Positions 826 through 8,877 of a stretch of 64,000 nucleotides of DNA are shown here, piece after piece. The position numbers were made by a program, and so were the translations under genes. How positions within the stretch are numbered: the stretch's first letter is position 1; the number at the start of each line of letters is the position of its first letter. The stretch comes from Novosphingobium sp. KA1. Lineage in GTDB: Bacteria; Pseudomonadota; Alphaproteobacteria; Sphingomonadales; Sphingomonadaceae. The stretch spans positions 190,798 to 254,797 of the forward strand of contig NZ_CP021249.1 of NCBI RefSeq assembly GCF_017309955.1, given 5' to 3'. The notes under the pieces are model-generated. The model had not been told where the DNA came from and ran no database searches. It worked only from the letters and a program-made list of their open reading frames with translations.

Positions 826-2700
826 TCTACCACATCCGTTCGCGTCTGCAAGCTCCTCGCAAGGTGCCTGTCCAATCAGGCTTGCAAGGATTTGGTCGGC
901 CTTGTCCGTCGGCACGAACACCCGCGTCTTGTAGGCAATGATTTCCGTGAAGCAGCCCTTGGCCTTGAGCTCGGGGATGCGCGCGGCTTCGGCATCGACG
1001 ATCTCGATCCTTCGGGAACCGTTCACGCGTGATGTGCGGATCGTGAAATTGAGCGGATGAGGCGCCTTCCAGGTGCCCCCGCCAAGGATGGCAGCCGCAA
1101 TCTTGGCAGGATCAGTCTGCGCCTTGCGGGCCACCCCGAGCTTTTCGAGGGTCGCATCGACGTAGAGGTCGTGGACATGGCGGCCGAGCCAGGAAGCACC
1201 TGACTTGTCGACGATGCGGTTGACCGTGAGGTCTTCCTTGGGAAGCGCGCCCCAGATCGGCAGGAGCAGCCCGGTCGCGAGACAGACCGTCTCAGTGACG
1301 AGCTGGCTTTCGTCGGCGGCGTATTCCTCTTCCCACAGCGCGCTGAACCTGGCCTTGGTCACGGGCTCCCAGGCGGACTCATCGAGCCGGTCAGCGCGCA
1401 GGTACTCGCTGCGCAGCGGCCGCACGAGCTCGTAGCGGCGGATCATGTGGCCCTCCTCGTCCATGTGCGAGGGCGCCGCGATGCCAAGCGCGACCTTGCC
1501 CGACTTGTCATTGCGCAGGAACAGCGGCTGTTCCTCATAGGATGCCAGCTTGAGCACGCGTTCGAGCGAGAGAACCTTGCGCCGCTGCGTCAGTGACAGC
1601 TCAAGCAGGTGCGAGGTCGCGCCCGTCACAGAGTCGGTCCGGATCACAGTGTCGGACAGCACCTCGCAGGCCTCGACCGCCACGGTCTCGACCCCGATAT
1701 CGAAGGTGCCCGCTTCCTTCGCCGCCGAGACGCGGGTTTCGACAAGGGTGAGGAACTCGTCGAAGATCGCGTTCTGGACGGCGATCTTCATGGCAAGGAT
1801 GCGGTTGAGCCAGCGCTGGATCGGCGGCAGATCCTCGCGCAGCACCCCGTCCTGGTCGGTGAGTTCGAGCCCGCTCATCCGCTGGAACTCCGACAAGGTC
1901 GTGCTCTTGAGCTTGGCCATAGCGAGGAGGCCATACCAGTCGTGGAGCGCGTGCTTGGCGTAGATGCTCTCGAGGTTGTCGCTGGCATCGAACATCCCCT
2001 GCCCGCCGGTCTGGCGCTGGCCGCGGGTGAGCGCGCCCAAGGCGTCGAGGCGCCGCGCGATCGTGCTGGTGAAACGGGCCTCGCCCTTGCAGTCGGTGGT
2101 GACCGGGCGGAACAGCGGCGGGCAAGCCTGATGGGTGCGGTGGGTGCGCCCAAGTCCCTGGATCGCCCGATCAGCACGCCATCCGGGCTCGAGCAGGAAG
2201 TGGACCCGGCGCTGCTGGTTTTTCGCATCGAGGCTCGCGTGATAGCTTCGGCCCGTACCGCCTGCATCGGAGAACACGAGGATGCGCTTGGCCCCGGTCA
2301 TGAACGCGGTGGTCTCGGCAAGGTTGGTCCGGGGTGAGCGGCTTTCGAGGCGCTGCTGCCCTGAGCCGTCACGGACCAGGCGTTTGCTGCGACCGGTCAC
2401 CTCGGCGACGGCCGTTACCCCGTAGTGCTCGAGCAGCGCATCGAGCGCGGTCGGGATCGGCGGCATGGCGCAGATATGCTCGATCAGGTCGGCGCGCGCG
2501 GCCTCGGCCTGCGGGTTGTGGACCGGATTGCCCGCCTCGTCCCACATCGGCCGCGAGCGCACGTCGCCAAGTTCGTCCGTGTATTCCTCCATTTGCCGGG
2601 TCGGGAAGGCGCGGGTCAGATAGTCGACGACGTATTCTTTGCAGTCCGCGATTATGTCGAGTCCGGCAGCCGGAGGCTCGGATTTGCGTCGGTTCGTCAT
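814..2700 (-). CDS. Strawberry-notch-like helicase, C-terminal half (split gene)
   Basis: 628 residues. After a short N-terminus the protein follows the strawberry-notch C-terminal helicase region: FSDAGGTGRSYHA near residues 143-155 and QGLGRTHRTHQ near 181-191, a superfamily 2 motif VI with the arginine finger. It is the missing second half of the gene at 6351-8819. The two were separated by the RIT element at 2629-6333. The first 24 codons, the ATG and the GGAG ribosome binding site 7 nt upstream all lie in the element's left terminal repeat, fused in frame to the host gene. Such proteins are common on sphingomonad and rhizobial plasmids; their exact role is unknown. Confidence 0.8.
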   Translation of the reverse strand: MTNRRKSEPPAAGLDIIADCKEYVVDYLTRAFPTRQMEEYTDELGDVRSRPMWDEAGNPVHNPQAEAARADLIEHICAMPPIPTALDALLEHYGVTAVAEVTGRSKRLVRDGSGQQRLESRSPRTNLAETTAFMTGAKRILVFSDAGGTGRSYHASLDAKNQQRRVHFLLEPGWRADRAIQGLGRTHRTHQACPPLFRPVTTDCKGEARFTSTIARRLDALGALTRGQRQTGGQGMFDASDNLESIYAKHALHDWYGLLAMAKLKSTTLSEFQRMSGLELTDQDGVLREDLPPIQRWLNRILAMKIAVQNAIFDEFLTLVETRVSAAKEAGTFDIGVETVAVEACEVLSDTVIRTDSVTGATSHLLELSLTQRRKVLSLERVLKLASYEEQPLFLRNDKSGKVALGIAAPSHMDEEGHMIRRYELVRPLRSEYLRADRLDESAWEPVTKARFSALWEEEYAADESQLVTETVCLATGLLLPIWGALPKEDLTVNRIVDKSGASWLGRHVHDLYVDATLEKLGVARKAQTDPAKIAAAILGGGTWKAPHPLNFTIRTSRVNGSRRIEIVDAEAARIPELKAKGCFTEIIAYKTRVFVPTDKADQILASLIGQAPCEELADANGCGRLSL

Positions 2701-2718
2701 GATTTTGCTCCAGATAAT
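2629..2718. repeat. RIT left terminal inverted repeat
   Basis: Inverted copy of 6244-6333, with two mismatches near the inner end (GAGCAAAATC here against GAGTGAAATC). Read on the minus strand it contains GGAG, an ATG at 2700 and 24 codons ending DCKEYV, which continue directly into the host gene fragment. Confidence 0.9.
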
Positions 2719-2748
2719 ATGAGCGTTGGGGGAATGTCCGGGGACGGG

Positions 2749-3753
2749 CTAGGCCCGCCTCCGAACGTCGGTAAGCATGGTGATCAGGGCATCGGATGGC
2801 GGCTTGAAGCGCCCGGGTTTGATGGCGGGCGCGCCGTGAGCCGCGAGGATTTGCAACTTCTCGTCGGGATCGGCGCGTAAATAGGCCTCGGTGCTCTGGA
2901 TGCTGGCGTGGCCGAGCCATAACGCGACCTTGCGGATGTCCCCGGTCGCTGCGAGCGTGTGCATCGCACAGGAATGGCGCAACACGTGCGGCGTGACGCG
3001 CTTGCCAAGGATCGACGGCTGCTTCTCTGCCGCGGTCTTGACGTGCTCGGCCAAACGGAACGCAAACCCGTCGCGGGTCATCGGCTGCCCGTTGGCATTG
3101 AGGAATATCTCGGCGACCTCGGCGTCGGGGCGGATCGCAAGCCATGCGCGCAACGCGAACTGGGTCTCCTTCCAGAGCGGTAGGACCCGTTCACGCCGAC
3201 CCTTGCCCATGATGTGCACGGTGGACAGGGAGCGGTCGGGAAAATCGCGCAGCTGCAGCGTTACGAGTTCCGACACTCGGAGCCCGCCAGCATAGGCCAG
3301 ATGCAGCATTGCGCGATCGCGGGTGCCAAGGCGTGTCCTGGGATCGGGGGCATCCAGCAATGCCTTGATCTCTGCCCGGTCGAGATAATCGATGAGCGCC
3401 TTGTCAGTCTTCTTGCTTGGGATCGATCGAACCCGAAGCGCCTGGTCAAGACAAACCGGAACTCGATACTCGATGTACCGGAAGAAGGACCTGATCGCCG
3501 CCAACCTGCCATTGCGGGTGCGCACGGAGCTGCCGCGCTGGGCTTCGATATGGTCGAGAAATGCCAGGATTAGATCGATGCCGAGATCCTCGACCTCCAG
3601 ATCGGTCGGTCGGCGCTTCAGCCGATCGGCAGCAAACCGGACTAGCAATACGAAGCAGTTGGCATAGGTCTTCACCGTGTGCGGGCTGACGGCGCGTTCC
3701 CGCGGCAGATGTTCGCGGAGGTATGCCGTGAGATGGGGAGCGAGCGCCGTCAT
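2749..3753 (-). CDS. ritC: RIT tyrosine recombinase, third gene
   Basis: 334-residue integrase of the phage-integrase fold. N-terminal core-binding domain spans about residues 5-105 and the catalytic domain about 120-315. Catalytic residues seen: R159 in GLRVSEL, K184 in MGKGRR, H256/R259 in HVLRH, H282 in LGHAS and nucleophile Y291. The start is the ATG overlapping the TGA of ritB (ATGA), so translation is coupled. A longer open frame extends upstream but only shadows ritB. Works with RitA and RitB on the element ends; the individual roles are not established. Confidence 0.88.
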   Translation of the reverse strand: MTALAPHLTAYLREHLPRERAVSPHTVKTYANCFVLLVRFAADRLKRRPTDLEVEDLGIDLILAFLDHIEAQRGSSVRTRNGRLAAIRSFFRYIEYRVPVCLDQALRVRSIPSKKTDKALIDYLDRAEIKALLDAPDPRTRLGTRDRAMLHLAYAGGLRVSELVTLQLRDFPDRSLSTVHIMGKGRRERVLPLWKETQFALRAWLAIRPDAEVAEIFLNANGQPMTRDGFAFRLAEHVKTAAEKQPSILGKRVTPHVLRHSCAMHTLAATGDIRKVALWLGHASIQSTEAYLRADPDEKLQILAAHGAPAIKPGRFKPPSDALITMLTDVRRRA

Positions 3754-4664
3754 GCCACTTCTCCCAGAAAGAGGTGTTCGCTCGCGGTAGCGATGTCGCG
3801 CAGCAGCACCGGGGTGGCTTCGAGATACCAATAGGTGTTGGCGATCGAGGCGTGCCCCAGATAGGCGCTGAGTCCGGCCATGTGATGCGCAACGGCCTCC
3901 CTGTCCGGCGAACACGACTCCAGCGAGCGCACGGCGAAAGTGTGCCGCAAATCGTGTAGCCGCATTCCGGTCGTACCGGTTGGTCCACGATAGCCGAGCT
4001 GTCGCGCCAGTCTGACGAACACGATATGAGCACGCACCTTGTGGGGTGCTCTTCCCCGGATCGTCACGAACAGGTCGCTGCCAGTGGCGCCGAGCCTTGC
4101 CCGGGTAGCGAGATAGGCTTCGAGCGCCTGACGGGTCGATGGCTGCAACGCTATCAGGCGCTGCTTGCCGAACTTGCCGTTGCGAATGATCAGGCCGTCT
4201 CCGCCCAGATCGTCGCATTGTAGCGCCAAGGCTTCGGAAATCCTGAGGCCCGTCGCAGCCAGCAGTCCAAACAGGCAATGGTAGGTATGAGGGCTGATCA
4301 TGCCCATGGGCGGCAGGTCCAGTGCTGCTGCCATGATCGCCCGAACCTGTTCCGGTTCGATGATGGTCGGCGTGGGGCGCGGACGCTTGCCCCGACCGAA
4401 AACGCCTGCAGGTGGGACCTGGTGTCCTGAATCTTCGGTGTGGGCGAATAGGCTGAAGTTGCGAACCGTGTCGAACCGCCTTTGGGCCACGTTCTGCGAG
4501 CTCGATGTGTGGCACCAGTCGTATATCCGTTGGACCTTGGTCCGTCGGTCACCGAATCCTTCGGCGTATGCTGCGTAGAGTCTGAGCATCCGGTCCTGTT
4601 CGCGGAACTTCCGGCCCAGGCTGCGATGCAGCGCGACGTATCTGGAAATATGCGTGTTCAGCAT
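3750..4664 (-). CDS. ritB: RIT tyrosine recombinase, middle gene
   Basis: 304 residues. Core-binding helices lie in the first 90 residues, then the catalytic domain with R141 in GLRISEALAL, a lysine in the 164-167 turn, H237/R240 in HDLRHTF, H271 in YLGHAS and a tyrosine at 278 or 280 in NTYWYL. It overlaps ritA by 7 bp upstream and ritC by 4 bp downstream, giving the coupled operon expected for a RIT trio. All key residues are present, so it should be active. Confidence 0.88.
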   Translation of the reverse strand: MLNTHISRYVALHRSLGRKFREQDRMLRLYAAYAEGFGDRRTKVQRIYDWCHTSSSQNVAQRRFDTVRNFSLFAHTEDSGHQVPPAGVFGRGKRPRPTPTIIEPEQVRAIMAAALDLPPMGMISPHTYHCLFGLLAATGLRISEALALQCDDLGGDGLIIRNGKFGKQRLIALQPSTRQALEAYLATRARLGATGSDLFVTIRGRAPHKVRAHIVFVRLARQLGYRGPTGTTGMRLHDLRHTFAVRSLESCSPDREAVAHHMAGLSAYLGHASIANTYWYLEATPVLLRDIATASEHLFLGEVA

Positions 4665-6205
4665 GACAGATCTCCTGGCCAGGGCTGTGCGATCTTCATG
4701 AGCATCGGCAAATCGACCTTGGCGTAGATGGCAGTGGTCTCGGGCGAGCTGTGACGCAGGATGGTCCCGACGGACTCCAGGCCTGCGCCCGCGCGCAGCA
4801 TGTTGGTGGCAAGCGAATGCCGGAATATGTGTGATCCGGTCGGCAGACCTTCGATCCCGCTTCGCTCCAATGTGCGTGCAACGATGCCGGCAATCTCAGC
4901 CGACGAGCTCAACGACCGAAACGGGGCATGCGCGCGCAGGAACAGGTGTCTGTCGATCGCCTTTGGACGAGCCGTCGACAGGTAGGCCAAGATCGCGTCG
5001 CCGACATCCTGGGGCAGTGGCAACCGCTCCGATCGTCGTGACTTGCCCTTGACTATCAAATGGCCGGAACGCCAATCGATGTCGTCGAGGCGCATATCCC
5101 GAATATCACTTGCCCGCAGGCCGAGCCTGGCAAGCAAGAGAATGATGGCCTTATCCCGGATCTGCACTGGCCGGTCAGTCGGACAGGCCGAAATGATCCT
5201 CTCGATCGTTGCCGGGTCAACATAGCGCGGCAATGTTGAAAGGCGGTATCGCTGCACAGAGGGTATCGCGTGCAGCAGTGCGGGACGGCATTGGCCTTGA
5301 CCAATGAGAAAGCGAAGAAAGCTCCGCATGATCGTAACGAGCAGCGATACCGATCCCGGCGTCTCCTTGCTTCTTCGCGCGAATGCGCTTCGTAGACCGG
5401 CGGCATCCCACAGCACGGGTGCGCCAAGCATGGCTATCAACCGGTCGACCTCCGGCCGATACCGACGGATAGTCGCGTCGGTTGCGCCGCGATGCTGCTT
5501 GAGCCAACCGAGATAGGCCGCGACATCCGGATGTACTTCCAGCTTCGCTTCGACTGGCGCGATAGCACCGCGATCACGAAGAAACGCGACGAAGTGCCGA
5601 ATGAAACGACGACGCCTCTTCATACCTGAAGAGGCCAACTTGCCGCGTTTGCGAAACGCCGGGCAGCGACAGTCGTGACCCGCGTATTGCTCGATCACCC
5701 CCTCATCGACTTCGGTCCAAGGTCGTCGCGACACGCGAAGCCAGATGGCGAAGTGCTCGGCCTCTGATCGATATGCTCCCGATAGCGCCTCAACGAGCTG
5801 GAGAGCATCGATCTGGTGCGAGTAGGCTGCCAGATGCCCACCGAGATCATCGATCCCATCGGCGACCACGATGTAGCCCTGATCTTCGAGAAACCGAATA
5901 AAGCGCCTGACACGCGCCGCAAGATCGGCCTTGTAGGCCGGCTCTTGCGCTGAATATCCCGGGCACCGGCATCGATGCTTCTCAAACCGGTGCGCGACGT
6001 GGTCGTCGAGCGTCTCGAGCGCAATCCCACGTAGTCCCAGCCAACTGAGAAAGTGGCGGACCGCTGCGCTGTACAGGACCGCACAAGCCGCCCCTTCGTC
6101 AACCGACAGAGAGGAGAGGAATGCGGTGAATAGGGCGTCGGGACTGGGCGGATCTTCAATCCTGCGCGGCGCGGGCCGAAACGACGCAAATGATCTTGTT
6201 GGCAT
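4658..6205 (-). CDS. ritA: RIT tyrosine recombinase, first gene
   Basis: 515 residues, longer than its two partners. The C-terminal catalytic domain (about 330-500) has R364 in GLRASDI, K387 in VKGKSR, H459/R462 in HIFRH, H485 in LRHSS and Y494. The extra N-terminal region appears to hold two related blocks, each with a CRCP motif (near residues 79-82 and 179-182) followed by a basic RRFIR helix and an FLxDxG turn. This suggests an internal duplication of a binding module. The ribosome binding site AAGGA lies 6 nt before the ATG. First gene of the trio; the right terminal repeat begins 38 bp upstream. Confidence 0.87.
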   Translation of the reverse strand: MPTRSFASFRPAPRRIEDPPSPDALFTAFLSSLSVDEGAACAVLYSAAVRHFLSWLGLRGIALETLDDHVAHRFEKHRCRCPGYSAQEPAYKADLAARVRRFIRFLEDQGYIVVADGIDDLGGHLAAYSHQIDALQLVEALSGAYRSEAEHFAIWLRVSRRPWTEVDEGVIEQYAGHDCRCPAFRKRGKLASSGMKRRRRFIRHFVAFLRDRGAIAPVEAKLEVHPDVAAYLGWLKQHRGATDATIRRYRPEVDRLIAMLGAPVLWDAAGLRSAFARRSKETPGSVSLLVTIMRSFLRFLIGQGQCRPALLHAIPSVQRYRLSTLPRYVDPATIERIISACPTDRPVQIRDKAIILLLARLGLRASDIRDMRLDDIDWRSGHLIVKGKSRRSERLPLPQDVGDAILAYLSTARPKAIDRHLFLRAHAPFRSLSSSAEIAGIVARTLERSGIEGLPTGSHIFRHSLATNMLRAGAGLESVGTILRHSSPETTAIYAKVDLPMLMKIAQPWPGDLSC

Positions 6206-6243
6206 GGTGGTTCCTTCGACGTGTTGAGGTCGAAGAACCCGTA

Positions 6244-6333
6244 ATTATCTGGAGTGAAATCATGACGAACCGACGCAAATCCGAGCCTCCGGCTGCCGGA
6301 CTCGACATAATCGCGGACTGCAAAGAATACGTC
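6244..6333. repeat. RIT right terminal inverted repeat
   Basis: Inverted copy of 2629-2718. Read on the plus strand it also holds TCTGGAG, an ATG and the same 24 codons, which here run into TAA at 6334-6336 because the flanking sequence differs. Confidence 0.9.
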
Positions 6334-6336
6334 TAA
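6262..6336 (+). other. 24-codon reading frame in the right RIT repeat
   Basis: ATG at 6262 with GGAG 7-8 nt upstream; encodes MTNRRKSEPPA up to DCKEYV and then stops just outside the repeat. It is the twin of the segment that starts the split helicase half at the other end. Here it probably makes no functional product. It is listed because it shows that the start codon and ribosome binding site belong to the element, not to the host gene. Confidence 0.4.
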
Positions 6337-6350
6337 TCTGGATCTCAACA

Positions 6351-8819
6351 TTATACATACTCCTTACAGTCATAGGCTATGTCGAGGGCCTCACGCTCAG
6401 CCGGCTCCAGTTCATCGAGCCGCCGGTTGAGGATGGATTCCGCCGTGCTCACCAGTTGGACGACCACGCTATCCCCTTCGCCCAAATGCTCGTCGATCGC
6501 GGGGTAGATCGAGGGCAGTTTCAGCGAGAGCAGGACTTGCGCAAAGAAGCGCTGCTTGGTTCCCTCGAACCGACTGCGGGCCGCCGCCTTGGCGCCGCTG
6601 TTGAGCGTCCGGTTCTCAAGCCCGTCGACGATGCCGGTGAGTTCAAGCGCGGCTTCGAGGTTCTGGTGAATGATCGTCCAGGCCTCGCAATAGGTGTCGT
6701 AGACCGTGATCTGCTCAACCGTCAGGTCATGGCGCAGGATGTCGTATTCGATGCCAGCAAAGCTGAGCGCCCGGGCGAGGTAGAGCCCTGAAGCCTTGAG
6801 GTCGCGGGCCACCAATTCCATCGCGGCAATGCCGCCGTCGCGGATCTCGCTGATGAACTGCTCGCGGTTTGCAAACGCCGTGCCCGGCCCCCACAGGCCA
6901 AGCCGGACAGCATAGGCGAGGTTGTTGACGTCCGAAGCACCGGTGGCCGATGCATAGAGCACCCGGGCGCGGGGCAGCGTGTTCTGGAGCAGCACGCCGG
7001 CGATGCCCTGGAGCGAGCCCTGCTTCTGGCCCCCTGACTTCTGACCAAATCCCCCTTCCCCGCCCGCAACGCCGCCCATTTCGTGGGCCTCGTCGAAGAC
7101 GATCACGCCTTCGAACTCCTCACCGGCCCAGCGGACGATCTGGTCGAGCCTGGTGTCCTCGACGCGTGAGCTGCGCAGCGTGCCATAGGGAACAAACAGG
7201 ATGCCTTCGGGCGCGGTGATCTCCTCACCGATCTTCCAGCGGGCAAGGTCGAGAATATCTGACGGCAAGCCGCCGATCGCGGTCCAGTCTCGCTGCGCGT
7301 CTTCGAGCAGCGGCGCATTCTTCGAGATCCAGATGTGTCGGCGATTGCCCTTCAGCCACTGGTCGAGAATGCAGGCCGCCGCCTGCCTCCCCTTCCCAGC
7401 CCCGGTGCCGTCGCCGAGGAAGAACCCGGTGCGGTAGAGCTTGCCGTCAGGATTCTCCTTGAGCGCCACTTCGCCGGCGGGATGGCTGAACCGGCCGTGA
7501 AGATCGCGCGACCAAGCTTCGCCCGCATAGATCACGGTTTCGAGCTGGGCGGCGGATAGCAACCGCGCGGTCACTGTGCGTTCGGGCAGGGAGGGCACGT
7601 AGCCGGGTTTGGGCGCCGCGATCGAGGCCATGGCGGCGGATTCGACGAGGTGGGTCGGATGTTCGCCAGCTTCCGCGATCACGACACGCGAGGGCCGGTA
7701 GTCGGCATAGACCCCGCGCTGCTCGCCCATCGCGGCGGGTTCGGCCAGCACGTCATAGGCGACCGGGCGGACGTCGTTGGTCTGGGGGGCGCGCACGACC
7801 ACGGGCCGGGCTGGACCGGTCTTCACCGAGCGGAACAGGCTGAGCTTTGGTCGGGGCGCTACCGCCTGCGTCGGGTCACGCAACGGCGCCCGAAGCGGCA
7901 CCGTAGGCAGCGCGGCGAAGAGTTCGCCGACCGAACCGCGATTGATGGTCGATACGCCGATCTCGCCTGGCACCTTGTCGATCACCAGCACGCGAACGGC
8001 GATCCCGGTGCCGTGCTTGACGTAGCCTCCCTTGTCCAGACGGAGCGACAGCACGACCCGCGCGCCTTCAAGGGTGCACCGGAAGGTTTCCTCATACCTT
8101 GCTGAGGGTGAGAACCAGTCCGGCATGATCGCAACGATCCGGCCACCGGGCAGCAGATGGTCGAGGGCGGCCCGCAGGTGCCTGGCGGCGGTGTTTTGAT
8201 CCTCACCGCGTGATTGCGACACCGAGAACGGCGGGTTCATAACAGCGACGCTTGGACGTTCAGTCCCGGAGAGAACCGCGCTGAGTTTCGCGCCATCGTG
8301 GCGATAGACCTTCGTGCCCGGAAACACGGCCTCGAGCAGGTCGGCACGGGATGGTTCGAGTTCGTTGAGAATGAGGCCCTTGACCGCGCCCTTGGCAAGC
8401 GAAGCGATGATACCGGTGCCCGCGCTCGGCTCCAGCAACACGTCGTCGCCGGAAAGCCCCGCCAGATGAACAACGAGCCTGGCCAGCACCGGCGGCGTCG
8501 AGAACTGCTGGAAATGGATCTGGTCCTCGCTGCGTACCGTGTGGGTCGGCAGTTCGCGCGCCAGCGCCTCCAGCGTGCTGATCGCCGCGCCGACGTCCAT
8601 GCGGCTGACAAGCTCGGGAATGGCGAGGGAGAGCGCGACTTCCAGCGCTTCGAAACTGTCGCGCTGCTGCCAGGCACCTGCGGCGTCATTGCCGCCTGCA
8701 CTCTCGGTCATGGCTTCGCTTAGAGCGGCGCGGTCGATCGGAACAGCGAGGAGTAGCTTGGCGGCAAGTGTGCGCGCAGCGCCGAGAATGGCGCTCGCGC
8801 GCGGAATTGTTGTGGTCAT
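6351..8819 (-). CDS. Strawberry-notch-like methyltransferase/helicase, N-terminal half
   Basis: 822 residues from the ATG at 8819, which has an AGGAG 8 nt upstream; a longer frame adds 12 poor codons. Residues 100-280 form an N6-adenine methyltransferase-like domain: FQQFSTP near 103-109, SAM motif LLEPSAGTGII at 128-138 and catalytic-type NPPF at 195-198. Residues about 420-700 carry the ATPase half of an SF2 helicase: Walker A GDGTGAGKG at 469-477 and DEAH box at 576-579. The frame ends at DCKEYV-stop where the RIT element is inserted; motif VI lies in the other half (814-2700). Without that half the helicase would be incomplete unless the two products associate. Confidence 0.82.
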   Translation of the reverse strand: MTTTIPRASAILGAARTLAAKLLLAVPIDRAALSEAMTESAGGNDAAGAWQQRDSFEALEVALSLAIPELVSRMDVGAAISTLEALARELPTHTVRSEDQIHFQQFSTPPVLARLVVHLAGLSGDDVLLEPSAGTGIIASLAKGAVKGLILNELEPSRADLLEAVFPGTKVYRHDGAKLSAVLSGTERPSVAVMNPPFSVSQSRGEDQNTAARHLRAALDHLLPGGRIVAIMPDWFSPSARYEETFRCTLEGARVVLSLRLDKGGYVKHGTGIAVRVLVIDKVPGEIGVSTINRGSVGELFAALPTVPLRAPLRDPTQAVAPRPKLSLFRSVKTGPARPVVVRAPQTNDVRPVAYDVLAEPAAMGEQRGVYADYRPSRVVIAEAGEHPTHLVESAAMASIAAPKPGYVPSLPERTVTARLLSAAQLETVIYAGEAWSRDLHGRFSHPAGEVALKENPDGKLYRTGFFLGDGTGAGKGRQAAACILDQWLKGNRRHIWISKNAPLLEDAQRDWTAIGGLPSDILDLARWKIGEEITAPEGILFVPYGTLRSSRVEDTRLDQIVRWAGEEFEGVIVFDEAHEMGGVAGGEGGFGQKSGGQKQGSLQGIAGVLLQNTLPRARVLYASATGASDVNNLAYAVRLGLWGPGTAFANREQFISEIRDGGIAAMELVARDLKASGLYLARALSFAGIEYDILRHDLTVEQITVYDTYCEAWTIIHQNLEAALELTGIVDGLENRTLNSGAKAAARSRFEGTKQRFFAQVLLSLKLPSIYPAIDEHLGEGDSVVVQLVSTAESILNRRLDELEPAEREALDIAYDCKEYV

Positions 8820-8877
8820 GCGGAGATCTCCTGAGCTTGTGCCGATCAGCGGCACGCCCGCTCCAGCCCCCCTCCCC

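Follow-up and report, generated by a model that had tools for sequence, protein, structure and literature searches.

What becomes of a gene when a mobile element settles in its middle? The question is raised by a recombinase-in-trio (RIT) element of 3,725 bp at positions 2629-6353 of a 64,000-nucleotide stretch (hereafter the window) of a plasmid from Novosphingobium sp. KA1, which we take to be pCAR3 and whose record NC_008308.1 the window matches at 100%. The element sits within a methylase-helicase gene of the strawberry-notch (sno) type. The original prediction, made from the letters of the window, held that the terminal repeats of the element supply a start codon to the gene it interrupts and that it appears made so that the downstream half stays expressed. 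We propose that this RIT is dedicated to one codon boundary of sno genes and that both of its repeats double as translation starts for the C-terminal half, a reading to which we assign a probability of roughly 0.77. What we found is best explained, on the sequences compared, by selection that keeps the C half translatable.

Both halves of the gene lie on the minus strand of the window. An open reading frame (ORF) of 628 residues (814-2700) consists of a leader, MTNRRKSEPPAAGLDIIADCKE, and the C-terminal half of the gene, which carries Helicase_C_4, the strawberry-notch C-terminal domain. A second ORF of 834 residues (6351-8855) contains a methyltransferase-like region and AAA_34, and it stops at a TAA (6353-6351) within the element. 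The N part is also similar to phage DNA methyltransferase families. In an intact relative, L132, the open frame is 1,443 codons long, is 93% identical to the N half in the window and 98% identical to the C half, and runs unbroken across the site (...ALDIAYDCKE-YVVDYLTRAFPT..., also given as ...TEREALDIAYDCKEYVVDYLTRAFPT...). The break falls after about codon 834, between the two helicase domains of the gene. These data confirm that a strawberry-notch-like gene is split, as predicted. Matches to the sno C half occurred in 105 of 298 sampled genomes of the family, and intact sno genes are common, as most matches listed fall within open frames of at least roughly 1,400 codons. Matches to the RIT recombinase at 73% identity or greater were found in 8 of the 298 genomes of a matching draw from the family and were scarce in a class-wide sample (4 of 385). 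Methylase/SNF2-type proteins are described from phages and plasmids, with the anti-restriction protein DarB of P1 as the archetype (PMC5512222), and by analogy the KA1 sno protein may have a DarB-like role.

The terminal inverted repeats (2629-2718, minus strand, and 6244-6333, plus strand) are 90 nt each and 98% identical. The two mismatches both fall between GGAG and ATG, and the reading frame has none. Read outward, the repeat consists of TTATCTGGAG, 7 bases, an ATG with 22 codons closing in ...GACTGCAAAGAA, and a hexamer; the 22 codons encode the leader given above. In the left repeat, which is joined to the C half, GGAG (2711-2708, within TTATCTGGAG) is followed 7 nt later by ATG (2700-2698), the element codons extend to 2635, and the host-type hexamer TACGTC (2634-2629) forms the codons TAC GTC inside the repeat with host DNA next to it. 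The hexamer continues directly into the gene as ...DCKE-YV-VDYLTRAFP. The right repeat carries GGAG (6251-6254), ATG (6262), the same codons, here ended by TAA, and TACGTC (6328-6333). The GGAG, ATG and 24 codons foreseen for each 90-bp repeat were thus found as GGAG-7-ATG and 22 codons plus TAC GTC, and the left end does read in frame into the C half.

The predicted coordinates of the element also held, and to them we add features of the N side, where the order is hexamer, 20-nt near-palindrome (6334-6353), second hexamer and gene. The near-palindromic spacer occurs on this side only and has an in-frame TAA on both strands. Because the N side has a hexamer and then the palindrome with its TAA, the N part ends ...DCKEYV-TAA. 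The second hexamer is TATGTA (6354-6359, minus strand), compared with TACGTC in the empty site of L132, and we read it as a 6-bp footprint brought along by the element. The apparent integration core is 6 bp long and lies at a codon boundary.

Between the repeats, three genes on the minus strand encode proteins of 515 (recombinase 1, 4658-6205), 304 (recombinase 2, 3750-4664) and 334 residues (recombinase 3, 2749-3753), the second and third overlapping the preceding gene by 7 and 4 nt, respectively. All three proteins matched Phage_integrase, and a motif scan found the catalytic R...HxxR...H...Y motifs of tyrosine recombinases in each of them. Just 30 and 38 nt separate the recombinase ORFs from the repeats. 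Three adjoining, overlapping recombinase genes, a size near 3.5 kb, and inverted repeats with a palindrome place the element among the RITs. These were described as three adjoining tyrosine recombinase genes with 4-8 bp overlaps, about 3,500 bp in length and present in several copies in some strains; the 2012 report, in its available text, gave a 28-9 bp inverted repeat with an overlapping palindrome but otherwise no convincing ends, and mobility was undemonstrated (PMC3414803). Our element is like those RITs in trio, overlaps and size, and here the ends, the target codon, the 6-bp core and the coding repeats can be read from sequence.

The original prediction called for a comparison with other RIT insertions in sno genes. 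We collected loci from plasmid records, genomes, GTDB contigs (best 80 of 367) and viral contigs. A recombinase-3 match was present at 127 loci, and 76 of these had a sno C-half match beginning at the expected residue. We dropped L035, where the sno gene is intact and the nearby RIT is inserted elsewhere, which left 75 junctions, or 70 distinct loci without L024, L027, L028, L029 and L030, which were taken as duplicates of other contigs because length and position agree. An SD-like (Shine-Dalgarno-like) site was defined as at least 4 bases of AGGAGG located 4-12 nt from the ATG. An in-frame ATG with an SD-like site was present in the repeat at all 75 junctions (all 70 distinct loci), which supports the prediction in repeats of differing sequence: the 75 junctions include 45 distinct 90-nt repeat ends. 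At 58 junctions there are 22 codons with GGAG-7 spacing, at nine 22 codons with GGAG-8, and at eight 20, 27 or 29 codons. The recombinase genes have the same orientation as sno at 40 loci and the opposite one at 35 (38 and 32 of the distinct loci). The N half terminates inside the element, no more than 37 codons from the junction, at 68 of 68 loci measured, and the C-half frame is at least 585 codons long at 67 of the 71 loci not cut by a contig end. Record titles are mostly alphaproteobacterial, while some bins are labelled more broadly or otherwise (e.g., Hylemonella for L046).

The leaders fall into five types, T1 (58 junctions), T2 (9), T3 (3), T4 (1) and T5 (4). T1 and T2, mostly from Sphingomonadales, are mutually related. 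T3 (Methylocystis), T4 (Bradyrhizobium) and T5 (Neorhizobium, Mesorhizobium, Paracoccus, Dinoroseobacter) are divergent in both DNA and peptide, strongly unlike T1/T2 and unlike one another. The ribosome site is inside TTATCTGGAG in T1 and T2, upstream of ATG embedded in ATTATGCCG in T3 and T4, and directly after TTATGCC in the T5 loci L037, L117 and L118; in L038, also T5, there is a GAGG only ahead of more upstream ATGs. Two protein-database searches returned the same kinds of leader: 76 of the 120 matches listed (of 2,679) had a T1/T2-like leader in the first, and 14 and 23 of the 120 listed (of 3,075) had T1/T2-like and T5-like leaders in the second. Protein P0116, a sno C half, has an unclassified leader, MSAKHAQASRFLQQSPRE, ahead of YI and perhaps represents a sixth type.

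One possibility is that these starts are a by-product of constraint on the DNA, the recombinase sites having captured or come to mimic the target so that a start arose with no selection for translation. The repeat DNA CTCGACATAA...GACTGCAAAGAA does resemble the target, and its codons for LDIIADCKE are similar to those for LDIAYDCKE, the native residues cut off from the C half by the insertion. GGAG also lies inside a motif, TTATCTGGA(G), that is present in the T2 palindrome, and the last 10 leader residues of T1-T4 are closer to the native ones than those of shuffled leaders (P 0.0006-0.019). However, the arrangement recurs in T3, T4 and T5 on different DNA, mimicry is not seen in T5 against the 11 native segments used (P 0.76), and ATG and frame are retained at 75 of 75 junctions despite substitutions. 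When the 120 nt before the junction were dinucleotide-shuffled and scored for GGAG, AGGA or GAGG with an ATG and at least 15 open codons to the junction, the start arrangement in the real frame had a P value of 0.0073 for the window; for nine representatives that cover the five repeat types, the individual values were 0.003-0.03. Since the nearest relatives outside sno also lack the frame (see below), a by-product is clearly improbable.

For insertions outside sno genes, we examined 20 other elements, with L033 added as a control from within sno, and assessed each side on the longest frame downstream of it. None of the nine element sides (eight elements) facing an open frame of at least 300 codons had an in-frame ATG upstream in the repeat, the longest downstream frame being one that may differ from the frame of the gene in a non-sno control. 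On the right of L114 an ATG lies 28 codons upstream in the longest frame (249 codons), with no GGAG, AGGA or GAGG; by-eye comparison with L035 and L111 suggests that this is not the frame of the gene. L127 has an SD-ATG arrangement with 10 codons in one frame. The idea that all RITs supply a start was rejected, as the non-sno RITs examined do not.

Three relatives are of particular relevance. The recombinases of L023, L099 and L100 branch next to those of T2; their repeats are homologous to T2 and keep the GGAG region, with a TGA at codon 5. L023 and L100 cut another gene (..GTPITN/TLAEM.. in L023, ..NTLGEM.. in L100) that is helicase-like by eye. In a recombinase-3 tree of 48 rows picked from the 127 loci, four changes of the sno label are required, at least two of them forced by well-supported branches, with gains and losses not distinguishable. 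Among the 52 other loci (the 51 outside the count and L035) 18 loci showed repeats with a leader frame and 20 repeats without one, five were mis-called owing to paralogous flanks, and nine lacked a repeat pair. At the 18 leader-bearing loci the contig ends at or near the repeats or there is no sno C half within reach; two of them were read for 12 codons. We also looked for the same repeats elsewhere with no fusion, which would have counted against the original prediction: elements with these repeats and a complete flank are all in sno, and L023 and L100, in their other gene, have lost the frame. Together with the 75 junctions, this supports by comparison the claim of a design that keeps the downstream half expressed, expression itself being predicted.

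It could be speculated that the repeat ORF encodes a small peptide for the element itself, for example in recombination, and that the fusion to sno is incidental. The ORF is indeed present in both repeats, and the palindrome side of T1 closes it at once with TAA. However, leader sequences are almost wholly different between types, the N-side hexamer of T2, T3 and T5 is followed by TTATC... with no immediate stop, and the frame is lost in the sister elements outside sno. We consider a small peptide highly improbable.

A second RIT family, B, with elements of about 3.8 kb, interrupts the sno gene roughly 105 codons further upstream, at ..DAWAI/IHRN... An in-frame TAA abuts the downstream piece at all nine loci read (L003, L006, L007, L011, L012, L015, L016, L019 and L021), and we rejected a start supplied by family B on this ground. 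In some records the middle fragment is annotated as a methylase or hypothetical protein. Trios related to family B are found at its site in L140, L142 and L146.

How might the sno RIT operate? Under our preferred reading, it would target one codon boundary of plasmid-borne sno-type methylase-helicase genes, between the helicase domains, and join the C half directly to a repeat, leaving the palindrome on the N side. Each repeat would serve both as an end recognised by the recombinases and as a translation start, with an SD-like site, an ATG and usually 20-27 in-frame codons, and the N-side end would provide a stop, so that one large protein becomes two separately translated ones. The two halves may still work together. 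Selection on the element to do less harm to its carrier plasmid could keep the start in place. That several RIT lineages convergently evolved coding repeats that make a two-subunit methylase-helicase in either orientation is a wider claim, which we hold tentatively and at less than even odds. If true, it would be a DNA-level way of living within a gene without killing it, like self-splicing in effect but achieved by splitting the protein.

The hexamers provide a possible record of movement. They vary from locus to locus as well as within an element, and nearly all of them specify dipeptides found at sno targets (YV, YI, FL, AI and similar); the earlier sites, too, were therefore probably in sno genes. 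The circular form is presumably symmetric (repeat, hexamer, palindrome, hexamer, inverted repeat), and either side of it could recombine with the target; insertion would therefore be possible in either orientation. In a hop via the older hexamer, orientation would flip, the C-side hexamer of the donor would take the inner place on the N side, and the old one would move outward. We compared hexamers on this two-step register at 63 loci, excluding L110, whose contig ends inside the element. The six pairs of 100% identical elements that share a strain and were read at both ends (YBL2, C1, SHJ, amiense, DC-6 and chungbukense) all fit, and all were flipped. Among pairs at 99.8% identity or greater, 9 of 33 in opposite orientation fit and 0 of 19 in the same orientation; the fits numbered 1 of 12 at 99-99.8% (not flipped), 0 of 61 at 95-99% and 33 of 1,028 below 95%, and some of them rest on common hexamers and are individually weak. 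These data suggest that the hexamers record earlier insertion sites in two steps and that hops between sno genes flip orientation; the footprints are compatible with such hops, and near-identical elements occur in diverged sno alleles. At L044 and L097, sno-like N-half sequence appears to lie on both sides, inverted, an arrangement that possibly came from recombination between two copies.

Is the C half expressed and useful? Because the ribosome site and start codon of the repeat align with its frame, the C half can probably still be made as a separate protein, with translation predicted to begin at the repeat-borne start. The ratio of non-synonymous to synonymous substitution rates (dN/dS) between the C halves of the window and the intact L132 is 0.039. 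Median values were 0.274 for split-intact pairs (35 pairs) and 0.093 for split-split pairs (168 pairs, not independent), with only two intact-intact pairs. We did not use low dN/dS as proof of function, as the insertions look recent. A structure model of the C half had low confidence (mean pLDDT 67.9, pTM 0.34) and was likewise not used as evidence; in it residues 1-15 are unstructured and a single helix (16-31) spans the mimic and the host residues. Within the leaders, synonymous differences per site exceed non-synonymous ones in the compared T1, T2 and T4 pairs (pS 0.44 and pN 0.14 between the two repeats of L109), but most T5 pairs show no such excess, which suggests that the open frame is kept more than the peptide.

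Several observations weigh against our preferred reading. The leader amino acids of T5 are weakly conserved, and binding of the recombinases may be what fixes parts of the leader DNA. A scan found no sigma-70-like promoter match near the repeats, which bears on transcription of the C half where the element lies in the opposite orientation. Low dN/dS in the C half may predate the insertion, given near-identical elements in diverged alleles. The collection of loci relied on recombinase 3 together with a C-half match at the junction and so could have missed badly decayed junctions, and nine of the 52 other loci lack the repeat pair altogether. Finally, the N half is also broken at the family B site at 14 of the 75 loci (nine read there); with no element-supplied start for the middle piece at those nine, full sno function may not matter there. 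This last point, together with the 4 of 71 C halves truncated within the contig and the recent movement indicated by near-identical elements in diverged alleles, raises the possibility that the start is kept while the split gene is being lost, its enzyme function ended, and that we mostly see recent insertions; translation of the C half would then make no difference either way. On the other hand, this would leave unexplained the conservation of the start across diverged RIT lineages and its absence in the lineages examined outside sno, and we regard it as unlikely.

An element that restores its target has precedents at the 5' ends of genes. IMEVchUSA3 in dusA and the integrative and conjugative element (ICE) SXT in prfC give their targets a new upstream coding sequence and start, and the target is still made (PMC8409611). 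The sno RIT is like them in supplying coding sequence and a start to an interrupted gene. In contrast, those elements act at the 5' end, where the target gains a new N-terminus as well as a promoter (with a reporter test for dusA; PMC8409611), whereas the sno RIT cuts mid-gene, is predicted to yield two proteins, and does so in either orientation through both repeats. GInts also have three recombinases, few target genes and an outward promoter able to spare expression of the neighboring gene (PMC5385486), and the sno RIT resembles them in its trio and narrow target. They differ in having a four-gene operon with ginD and large cargo, and coding inverted repeats are absent from the available part of that description (PMC5385486); in the KA1 element, with 30 and 38 nt beside the recombinase ORFs, we found no ginD-like fourth gene. 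A 6-bp footprint from the previous site is shared with SE elements and Tn554 (PMC10214605). Those have other recombinase sets, and the sno RIT has two hexamers around a palindrome, a flipped orientation and the two-step register. The gene sets of SE (two recombinases with CDS2/CDS4) and Tn554 (TnpC) were not seen either, the KA1 element having three recombinases and no room for another gene. In the literature searched, seen in part, we found no mid-gene split with coding inverted repeats, in both orientations and in several RIT lineages, although print may hold one.

Our data suggest that an element can choose a mid-gene home and perhaps limit the damage, and they provide dozens of naturally split helicases with defined break points. 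For one RIT family the ends and the target are now described, as is a record of its movement, and RIT transposition becomes directly testable.

In some of these RITs (among L035, L037 and L038, and among L005, L007, L013, L014, L016 and L018), cargo lies between the recombinase genes and one repeat, either a DEAD/DEAH helicase gene of about 2.5 kb or a hypothetical gene of 1.3 kb. Beside the C half in the window, two minus-strand regions (162-548 and about 551-792) look by eye like a PIN-type toxin and its antitoxin.
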